NCBI GenBank assembly: GCA_020248405.1
Contig: JADCHQ010000007.1
Location: forward strand, 1-64,000
Direction: 5' to 3'
Length of the DNA stretch: 64,000 nucleotides
Source: Rhodocyclaceae bacterium
Lineage (GTDB): Bacteria > Pseudomonadota > Gammaproteobacteria > Burkholderiales > Ga0077523
Both the position numbers and the translations under genes were made by a program. The notes beneath the pieces are model-generated. The model had not been told where the DNA came from, did no database searches, and saw nothing but the letters and a program-made list of their open reading frames with translations. The stretch's first letter is position 1; the number at the start of each line of letters is the position of its first letter. Below are positions 46,576 through 49,974 of this stretch, piece after piece.

Positions 46576-47085
46576 ATGGCCTGGTTCGACATTGCCGTAC
46601 TCGCGGTCCTCGGCGTGTCGGTGCTGCTCGGGGTGATGCGCGGCATTGTCAAGGAAACCATGGCAATCATTTCCTGGGTGGTGGCGTTTTTGATCGCCAG
46701 GCAGTTCGCCCGAACCGTCTCAAGCTGGTTGCCTGCAACGCTGCAGCCAGAGTCCCTTCGCTACGCCGCAGGATTCGCTGCCGTACTCCTCGGCGCCTTG
46801 CTGTTGCTGTGGATTGCGACGTTTTTCGCCTCTCAGCTGGTGAGCGCGGCGGGCTTTGGTGGAGCCGACCGTGGCTTGGGCGCCCTGTTCGGATTTGCTC
46901 GAGGTGTACTGATCGTGGTGGTGGCGGTGCTGCTGGCAGGGCTCACTGAGCTTCCGAAGCAACCGGGTTGGCGTAACGCGTGGCTCTCGGCACCCTTCGA
47001 GTCGCTGGCCGAGTCGTTGCGTTTGTACGTTCCAGCCGCGGTGCGTGGCGGCATGGGCAACAGGACTGGAGCGGCCGGGCGCTGA
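46576..47085 (+). CDS. cvpA: CvpA family inner-membrane protein
   Basis: The 169-residue protein has four predicted membrane helices and the CvpA start [20 protein letters not shown] followed by [13 protein letters not shown]. CvpA is required for colicin V production in E. coli and affects envelope stress tolerance; its biochemical role is not settled. It lies 7 bases after the SPOR gene and 19 bases before purF, as in E. coli where cvpA and purF share an operon. Confidence 0.92.
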
Positions 47086-47104
47086 GTCCGGCGGGAGAAC
47101 GAAC

Positions 47105-48637
47105 ATGTGCGGAATTCTCGGCGTAGTGGCGGGCGGCCCCGTGAACCAGTTGCTCTACGACGGTCTTCTAGTGTTGCAGCACAGAGGGCAGGATGCCGCA
47201 GGCATCGTTACTGCCGAGGGCAGCACTTTTCACATGCACAAGGGCGGAGGTTTCGTGCGCGATGTCTTCCGCACCCGGGACATGCGCAACCTGGCGGGCG
47301 CCACCGGCATTGCGCATTGCCGCTACCCGACCGCCGGATCGGCCATGAATGCAGCCGAGGCCCAACCCTTCTACGTCAACTCGCCCTTCGGCATCGTGCT
47401 TGGCCACAATGGCAACCTCACTAACTCCGAGCAGCTGAAGCGCGAACTGTTCCGTGACGACCTCCGGCACGTGAACACCAACTCCGATTCGGAGGTGCTG
47501 CTCAACGTACTCGCCCACGAACTGCAAGCGGCAGGTCGCGGCGTGCGACTAGATCCAGAGACCATCTTCGCCGCCGTGGCGGGTGTCCACCGCCGTTGCC
47601 GCGGTGCCTACGCCGTGGTTTGCAGCATCGCGGGCTACGGACTGCTCGCTTTCCGCGATCCCTTCGGCATCCGACCGCTCGTGTACGGCACGGCTCGTGG
47701 CGAGCGCGGTACCGAGTACCTTGTGGCGTCTGAAAGTGTGGCGCTGGACACCCTGGGATTCCGGCTAGAGCGCGATGTGCAGCCGGGAGAGGCCATATTC
47801 ATCGATACCCAAGGTTCCTTCCACAGCCGCCAGTGCGCCGACCAGCCGTCTCTGAATCCCTGCATCTTCGAGTTCGTTTATCTGGCGCGCCCCGACTCGG
47901 TGATCGATGGCATTTCGGTGTACGAGACCCGGCTTCGGATGGGGCAGAGCCTGGCGCGCAAGATTGCGCGTCAGCATGCCGACTTGCACATAGACGTGGT
48001 GATCCCGATCCCGGATTCGAGCCGACCCTCCGCAATGGAACTGGCGCGCGACCTGGGCGTGGACTATCGCGAGGGATTCATCAAGAACCGCTACATCGGC
48101 CGCACATTCATCATGCCGGGCCATGCGGTGCGCAAGAAATCCGTGCGACAGAAACTCAACGCCATCGCCATGGAGTTCAAGGACAAGAACGTCCTTCTGG
48201 TGGACGACTCGATAGTTCGAGGCACCACCAGCCGGGAGATCGTACAGATGGCCCGCGAATCCGGCGCCAAGCGTGTGTTTTTCGCCTCTGCCTCGCCCCC
48301 GGTGCGATTCCCGAACGTCTACGGGATCGACATGCCGTCCGCGCGCGAGCTCATCGCGAACGGTCGCGGTGACGGGGCCATCGCCCGCGAGATCGGCGCT
48401 GATTGCCTCATCTATCAGGACCTGGATGGTTTGGTGAGTGCAGTTCGGTCGGTCAATCCACGCGTCACCAACTTCGAGACGTCCTGCTTCAGCGGTTTGT
48501 ATGTGACCGGCGATGTGACCGCCGATTATCTCGCCGGTATCGAGGCGCAACGCAACGACGACGCCCTCGCCCGGCGCGCCTCCACCTCTGCCACCACGCA
48601 ACTCGACCTCAACCTGATGGAGACCGCCGCCGGTTGA
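47105..48637 (+). CDS. purF: Amidophosphoribosyltransferase
   Basis: The 510-residue enzyme makes phosphoribosylamine from PRPP and glutamine, the first step of purine synthesis. The N-terminal glutaminase nucleophile is Cys2 (MCGILGVV, exposed after Met removal), so the short type without a propeptide is present. The PRPP loop is [17 protein letters not shown] at about residues 363-379. YIGRTFIMP and [10 protein letters not shown]-like ([10 protein letters not shown]) sequence are typical. A 146-base gap with a candidate riboswitch follows. Confidence 0.97.
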
Positions 48638-48670
48638 CAGAGGCTTGGTACCGGATGCACATTCTTCGCG

Positions 48671-48724
48671 TTGCGCCGATTTGAAGCACAGCTTGCGGGC
48701 GCGTTATAAATCCGGCTAAAGCGT
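48671..48724 (+). promoter_or_regulatory. SAM-II riboswitch candidate upstream of metZ
   Basis: The gap between purF and metZ contains the conserved blocks of the SAM-II aptamer in order and spacing: GCGCC (48673-48677), GATTTGA (48678-48684), GCTTGC (48691-48696), GGCGC (48698-48702), TTATAAAT (48704-48711) and GCTAAAG (48715-48721). GCGCC and GGCGC form stem P1. An H-type pseudoknot can close by pairing of GCTT in the loop with AAGC at 48719-48722 (inferred). SAM-II is known to sense S-adenosylmethionine upstream of methionine genes, mainly in alphaproteobacteria. The gene downstream is metZ, a matching target. Confidence 0.8.
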
Positions 48725-48727
48725 TGC

Positions 48728-48768
48728 GACGGGAAACCCGTCCGAGCGTGAAGCCGGGCGGGTTTTTT
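48728..48768 (+). terminator. Overlapping antiterminator and terminator hairpins before metZ
   Basis: AAACCCGTCCG (48734-48744) pairs with CGGGCGGGTTT (48755-48765) over 11 bp with one G-T pair, followed by a T run to 48768, which is an intrinsic terminator form. A second hairpin GACGGG-AAA-CCCGTC (48728-48742) shares the 5' arm, so the two cannot form together. Lying between the SAM-II-like aptamer and the metZ ATG, this is a likely expression platform. Which hairpin is favoured by SAM is inferred, not shown. Confidence 0.7.
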
Positions 48769-48783
48769 CATTTTCCACACGCC

Positions 48784-49974
48784 ATGGACCCTCTTCTTCC
48801 TGCAGATCATCCCGGTTTCGATACTCTGGCCGTGCGCGCAGGCACGGCGCGAAGCCAGTTTCAGGAACACTCCGAGGCCATGTATCTCACCTCGAGTTAC
48901 GTGTTCGACAGTGCCGCTCAGGCGGCGGCGCGCTTCGCAGGCGAGCAGGCGGGTTTCGTGTATTCGCGCTACACCAATCCCACCGTGGCGGCCTTCGAAA
49001 CCCGGCTCGCCGCCCTTGAAGGCGCCGAGTGCTGTGTGGCCACCGCCTCCGGCATGGCCGCCATCCTCGCCGTTACCATGGGCCTGCTGAAGTCTGGCGA
49101 CCACATCGTCGCATCGCGCAGCCTGTTTGGCGCCACCATCCAGCTGTTCAACAACCTGCTGGCGCGCTTCGGCGTCACCACCACCTGGGTTCCCCTCACC
49201 GACCCTTCGGCCTGGGCCGCGGCGGTGCGCCCGAATACGCGGCTGCTGTTCCTCGAGACGCCCTCGAATCCGCTGACTGAGGTGGCGGACATTGCCGCGC
49301 TCTCAGAGGTGGCGCGCGCTGCAGGCGCGCTGCTGGCGGTGGACAATTGTTTCTGCACTCCGGCCCTGCAGCGCCCCTTGAAACTGGGCGCCGACATCGT
49401 CATTCACTCCGCCACCAAATACCTCGATGGCCAGGGGCGGGTGCTCGGCGGCGCGGTGCTTGGCCGGCGCGAGCAATTGCACGAACCGCTCACGGTGTTT
49501 CTGCGTAATGCCGGCTGCGCACTCAGCCCGTTCAACGCCTGGGTGATCCTCAAAGGGCTCGAGACGCTGCGGGTGCGCATGCAGGCCCAGTCGCTCGCAA
49601 CCCTGGCGCTGGCGGGCTGGCTCGAATCCCATCCCCGGGTGCGCCGCGTGCACTACCCTGGGCTTGTCTCCCATTCCCAGCATGCCCTCGCCATGCGCCA
49701 GCAATCTTCCGGGGGCGCGATCCTGTCCTTCGAAGTGGACGGTGGCCGCGAAGCCGCCTGGCGGGTGGTGGATGCATGCCGCGTGATTTCCATCACCGCC
49801 AATCTCGGCGATGTGAAGAGCACCATCACCCATCCCGCTAGCACTACCCATGGTCGTGTGGCGCCCGCTGTGCGCGAGGCAGCGGGTGTGAGCGAGGGCC
49901 TTCTTCGTCTGGCCGTGGGGTTGGAGTCGGTGGAAGACCTGCGCGCCGATCTCGGGCGCGGGCTCGACGGCTGA
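48784..49974 (+). CDS. metZ: O-succinylhomoserine sulfhydrylase
   Basis: The 396-residue PLP enzyme makes homocysteine from O-succinylhomoserine and sulfide. The PLP lysine is Lys212 in HSATKYLDGQGR, and YSRYTNPT and ATASGMAAI are typical. Length and the KYLDGQGRVLGG segment favour MetZ over MetB or MetY. The ATG lies only 15 bases after the T run of the upstream hairpin and has no clear RBS, so its expression probably depends on the leader. cysS follows on the other strand after 6 bases. Confidence 0.92.
   Translation: MDPLLPADHPGFDTLAVRAGTARSQFQEHSEAMYLTSSYVFDSAAQAAARFAGEQAGFVYSRYTNPTVAAFETRLAALEGAECCVATASGMAAILAVTMGLLKSGDHIVASRSLFGATIQLFNNLLARFGVTTTWVPLTDPSAWAAAVRPNTRLLFLETPSNPLTEVADIAALSEVARAAGALLAVDNCFCTPALQRPLKLGADIVIHSATKYLDGQGRVLGGAVLGRREQLHEPLTVFLRNAGCALSPFNAWVILKGLETLRVRMQAQSLATLALAGWLESHPRVRRVHYPGLVSHSQHALAMRQQSSGGAILSFEVDGGREAAWRVVDACRVISITANLGDVKSTITHPASTTHGRVAPAVREAAGVSEGLLRLAVGLESVEDLRADLGRGLDG

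Follow-up and report, generated by a model that had tools for sequence, protein, structure and literature searches.

A predicted SAM-II riboswitch with a transcription terminator upstream of metZ in a Rhodocyclaceae bacterium

The SAM-II element was described in 2005, together with its terminators and an example from Bordetella bronchiseptica (Corbino et al., PMC1273637). According to PMC2704228 it occurs most often in Alpha-, Beta- and Gammaproteobacteria, regulatory terminators are its usual platform in alpha- and beta-Proteobacteria (PMC2258182), and the combination of SAM-II and terminators has been on record for the beta-Proteobacteria since 2007. In the metZ system of Sinorhizobium meliloti, high SAM leads in vivo to an increase in terminated sRNA and a decrease in read-through mRNA (PMC9373788, 2022), and tandem SAM-II arrangements are also known (PMC9481103). 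Given these earlier reports (PMC1273637, PMC2704228, PMC9373788), both the lineage and the platform of the locus studied here were already known.

A further RNA element of beta-proteobacteria, metXZ, is presented as novel by Leyn et al. (2014, PMC4239095). As described there, six conserved blocks form a pseudoknot, followed by a terminator; the element precedes metX in most groups, including Comamonadaceae and Alcaligenaceae, and metZ in Methylophilales, Nitrosospira and Thiobacillus. The same authors report SAM_alpha only from Rhizobiales and Rhodobacterales.

The aptamer between purF and metZ

The window (the whole stretch of 64,000 nucleotides that was analysed) carries purF at 47045-48637 (+; TIGR01134, 511 bits, residues 22-486), where 47045 is the listed start of the open reading frame and the real start probably lies further downstream. 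Between the purF stop (48637) and the metZ ATG (48784), the sequence holds a SAM-II aptamer and then a terminator. The gene that follows, at 48784-49974 (+), had been named as metZ, the target of regulation, in a first-pass annotation. This assignment is well supported and established computationally: both NCBIfam equivalog models for O-succinylhomoserine sulfhydrylase score above their cut-offs (PRK08133, 689 bits against 522; TIGR01325, 598 bits against 510). No obvious Shine-Dalgarno sequence was found ahead of the ATG.

TTGACA at 48634-48639 (+), likely a -35 box, lies 39 nt ahead of P1 and overlaps the stop codon of purF; the -10 box at this site is weak. Among 71 non-redundant loci, 45 have TTGAC 25-50 nt ahead of P1 (1.6 expected from shuffles), and the distances peak sharply at 35-39 nt, in agreement with the promoter usually sitting right before P1 in this element (PMC1273637). 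A simple promoter and terminator scan of the site called nothing, owing to that weak -10 box and to a terminator loop (10 nt) longer than it allows.

We aligned the site to the Rfam model SAM_alpha (RF00521) and to R1, a covariance model trained on 45 loci that do not belong to the genus of the window (other genus names or metagenome bins), whose source scan may omit records from the genome of the window or from very close ones. The complete aptamer spans 48672-48728 (+). P1 pairs GCGCC (48673-48677; both alignments) with GGCGC (48698-48702; both alignments and covariation in relatives), and between its strands lie the conserved loop 1, GATTTGA (48678-48684; both models, GATTTG being invariant in alignment A1), and the conserved core CAGCTTGC (48689-48696; both models), which is the 5' strand of the P2 pseudoknot and contains GCTTGC (48691-48696), also invariant in A1. 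The A-rich conserved joining segment TTATAAAT follows at 48704-48711, and the P2 3' strand, GCTAAAG (48715-48721) plus the next bases, at 48715-48728 (RF00521 and A1 for both), all on the forward strand. Every block that the first-pass annotation had picked out is thus present in the sequence where it had placed it, and GATTTG, GCTTGC, the A-rich segment and GCTAAAG have the order and spacing of SAM-II.

In 58 distinct relatives, four of the five P1 pairs show double-sided changes and 99% of cells are paired. The conserved GC/GC pairs of P2 are invariant, and the window RNA can form GCA/TGC plus GC/GC; the outer P2 pairs are short and imperfect at this site. Outer P2 weakly favours its own partner over swapped ones (-3.21 vs -2.92 kcal/mol; 477 of 20000 permutations, ~2%, were as good), which lends the predicted pseudoknot modest statistical support. 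In the minimum free energy structure of the full leader, which comes from a program that models neither pseudoknot nor ligand, the aptamer region folds differently and P1 is absent.

Terminator, antiterminator and predicted switching

From sequence and folding, an intrinsic terminator lies at 48734-48768 (+), with an 11-bp stem (48734-48744/48755-48765; arms AAACCCGTCCG...CGGGCGGGTTT) and a T6 at 48763-48768 that ends 15 bases ahead of the metZ ATG, as first noted. A comparable hairpin and T run occur in 136 of 173 relative loci. The first-pass annotation had proposed this hairpin and another, GACGGG-AAA-CCCGTC at 48728-48742, as two mutually exclusive structures. Their overlap and exclusion were borne out, but not the role of the earlier hairpin as a stand-alone alternative: folding puts it within a longer stem, and it is probably the tip of an antiterminator predicted at 48712-48757 (+) by nascent-transcript folding and swap tests. 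This structure would consist of CCGGCT/AGCCGG (48712-48717 with 48752-48757), GCGTT/AGCGT and the GACGGG-AAA-CCCGTC cap. The 48728-48742 hairpin was rejected as an antiterminator on its own, since several same-genus metZ leaders (L008, L020) do not retain it, while pairing of the CCGGCT/AGCCGG type is kept. Across the eight same-genus metZ leaders (window included) this pairing persists with compensating changes, for instance TCCGGCT/AGCCGGG here and TTCGGCT/AGCCGAG in L034.

Stepwise folding gave the alternative pairings, which are in this sense computationally established, in a definite order. Nascent transcripts ending at 48758-48762 fold into P1 plus the long stem 48712-48757, and the terminator appears once 48765 has been made. 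The antiterminator uses 48712-48725, overlapping the P2 strand that SAM binding would tie up, and with those bases blocked the terminator folds by 48762. The terminator-type platform proposed at the outset is well supported by sequence and folding: the intrinsic terminator competes with an antiterminator that draws on aptamer bases, and the two exclude each other.

We then compared the pairing of each aptamer 3' strand with its own terminator and with those of other loci. In 80 non-redundant loci the own terminator was preferred (-12.5 vs -11.0 kcal/mol), a difference reached in 0 of 20000 permutations, and the preference remained at n=42 and n=25 (0 of 10000 permutations each). Significance was gone at n=17, under strict redundancy removal and with a shorter aptamer segment (1918 of 10000), and part of the preference may therefore be due to common descent. 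A control segment upstream of P1 gave zero effect, and the loop-1 strand showed no preference for its own over swapped terminators. The motif AAGCTG, complementary to CAGCTT of the invariant aptamer core, is strongly enriched in terminators (24 of 136, vs 1.2 in shuffles), occurring in loops in, e.g., L039, L044 and L065; this sequence pattern suggests a second alternative pairing.

The mechanism that we consider highly probable is a SAM-II riboswitch that turns metZ off by transcription termination, where SAM binding and SAM-dependent termination would follow by analogy with the class. RNA polymerase would start at the promoter just past purF and transcribe the aptamer first. At low SAM, the aptamer 3' strand CCGGCTAAAGCGTT (from 48712) would pair with AGCGTGAAGCCGG (48745-48757), made up of the emerging terminator loop and the beginning of its 3' arm, and the antiterminator so formed would allow read-through into metZ. 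Once SAM is abundant enough, the aptamer would close P1 and the P2 pseudoknot, occupying GCTAAAG and blocking the antiterminator; the 48734-48765 hairpin would then fold and transcription would end at the T run.

An aptamer acting mainly on translation of metZ, next to an independent or constitutive terminator, has a precedent in S. meliloti metA (PMC9373788), and in L050, L081, L123 and L130 the start codon lies a few bases past GCTAAAG with no terminator between. Here, however, the ATG is 62 nt past GCTAAAG, the loop and 3' arm of the intervening terminator pair with the aptamer strand, and the swap tests tie that strand to the terminator, all of which makes a mainly translational switch improbable and leaves control by termination as our preferred reading.

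Covariance scores and distribution among relatives

At gathering thresholds, Rfam gave zero matches over the whole window. In a local scan of 301 bases, RF00521 matched the site over its full length (1-79) with 29.7 bits (E 4.5e-5; 1.3e-4 over the whole genome). This is under the gathering score of 36 bits, a curation cut-off and not a biological feature, so standard Rfam would leave the site unannotated. The same scan reported no SAM-V match at the site, and weak matches to rnk_pseudo, Bp2_287 and P9 were discarded, as they arose from the terminator or on the reverse strand, with scores far under their cut-offs. R1, although biased toward the consensus because its loci were collected with a consensus pattern, scored the site at 73.2 bits (E 8e-21), with a runner-up in the window of 12.2 bits. 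Genome-wide (site E 4.7e-19), the sole comparable site reached 70.8 bits and lies ahead of metH, encoding methionine synthase, where RF00521 also places a second SAM-II copy (33.5 bits).

The covariance-model check suggested in the first-pass annotation thus formally failed (29.7 vs 36 bits). Close relatives, however, score above the cut-off, and a model from other genera gives 73.2 bits, from which we conclude that the Rfam threshold is overly stringent for this lineage. The SAM-II type itself is well supported by the full-length RF00521 match and the R1 score, and class membership is established at the computational level. One could still take this sub-threshold score (29.7 bits) as the mark of a decayed copy that has lost its function. 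We find this very unlikely: the core bases are all intact, R1 scores the site as high as relatives above the Rfam threshold, and the architecture is kept in same-genus metZ leaders with compensating changes. As for chance, a terminator after purF would be unremarkable, but an ordinary purF terminator beside random consensus matches can be set aside, being already refuted by the R1 scans (E 8e-21 with an independent model) and by a position before metX, metZ and metH that is conserved across many families. The site is a real SAM-II riboswitch of the terminator type and almost certainly a functional one; within a class common in this bacterial group it is an ordinary member, if one with an unusually low score.

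RF00521 matches were found in 27 of 41 genomes comprising the window's own and its nearest relatives, five of which hold a match over threshold (three of the five from the same genus). A survey of 300 genomes of the order gave matches at E<=0.001 in 137, with 51 above the Rfam cut-off, against 0 of 14 control genomes; this indicates that many SAM-II riboswitches of the order fall under the cut-off. With these 51 genomes and the published cases (PMC2258182, PMC1273637), the earlier view that such a platform would be notable in a betaproteobacterium finds no support. That the window is betaproteobacterial is suggested by its gene order and by the relatives that bear SAM-II. Eight of the 18 named loci scanned exceed the Rfam threshold. 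Targets in relatives are methionine and SAM genes (metX, metZ, metH, metK and metY-like): SAM-II lies ahead of metX in Variovorax, Herminiimonas and Thauera, and ahead of metZ in Nitrosospira, Novimethylophilus and one Methylophilales genome. For this genome, the metZ locus and the copy before metH amount to two predicted methionine-pathway switches that standard Rfam annotation overlooks.

Several other arrangements were observed along the way. Five loci have a first aptamer and terminator and, after these, another SAM-II-like aptamer that has diverged (L062:1654-1708, L010:1673-1746, L015:1370-1430 (-), L041:1367-1436 (-) and L028:1609-1665); in L010, L015, L041 and L062 a putative MATE-type transporter gene, named by eye, lies further downstream of the second aptamer. 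Another possible second SAM-II-like aptamer, at L029:1640-1730, has an additional hairpin between P1 and GCTAAA. At L048:1510-1565 the aptamer lies immediately upstream of a putative metK (SAM synthetase), and the terminator loop exactly complements GGCTAAA. In L089, L097, L108, L139 and L104 (Microvirga, Bosea, Rhodoplanes), SAM-II precedes ABC-transporter substrate-binding-like genes and not methionine biosynthesis. At L096:1883-1940 and in L111 it precedes a homocysteine methyltransferase-like gene on contigs labelled Acidimicrobiia (Actinomycetota), which could reflect horizontal transfer or mis-binning. A candidate third copy in the genome of the window (22.8 bits; C18:2854-2903, L183:555-604) was rejected, as GATTTG is missing and its surroundings held no methionine gene that could be recognised; it reads CGCTAAAGCG, then CTTTAGC and CAAGCTG, with the 5' half of the aptamer absent, and is possibly a remnant.

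Comparison with known SAM-II systems and the metXZ element

With the SAM-II family RF00521 (SAM_alpha, or metA element), the site shares P1, the loop and core blocks, the strands of the predicted pseudoknot, a promoter just upstream, a terminator and a methionine gene downstream; it differs in scoring below threshold and in its short, imperfect outer P2 pairs. The S. meliloti metZ SAM-II (PMC9373788) is of the same class, precedes the same gene and likewise has a predicted SAM-induced terminator, but is alphaproteobacterial. SAM-V (PMC2704228) has a pseudoknot and ligand-contacting bases similar to those of SAM-II, yet it controls translation and does not have the last pairing element at the 3' end.

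The metXZ element, compared here through its description in the text of PMC4239095, is associated with the same genes and groups as our SAM-II loci. The most economical reading of this match is that the orphan element is probably SAM-II. We think it likely, more broadly, that metXZ is SAM-II, missed through an Rfam cut-off too high for this lineage, and that across these bacteria the terminator loop has evolved to pair with the SAM-binding 3' strand of the aptamer, as a common antiterminator design. If metXZ is indeed SAM-II, an open item in beta-proteobacterial methionine regulation would be closed, with a known ligand.
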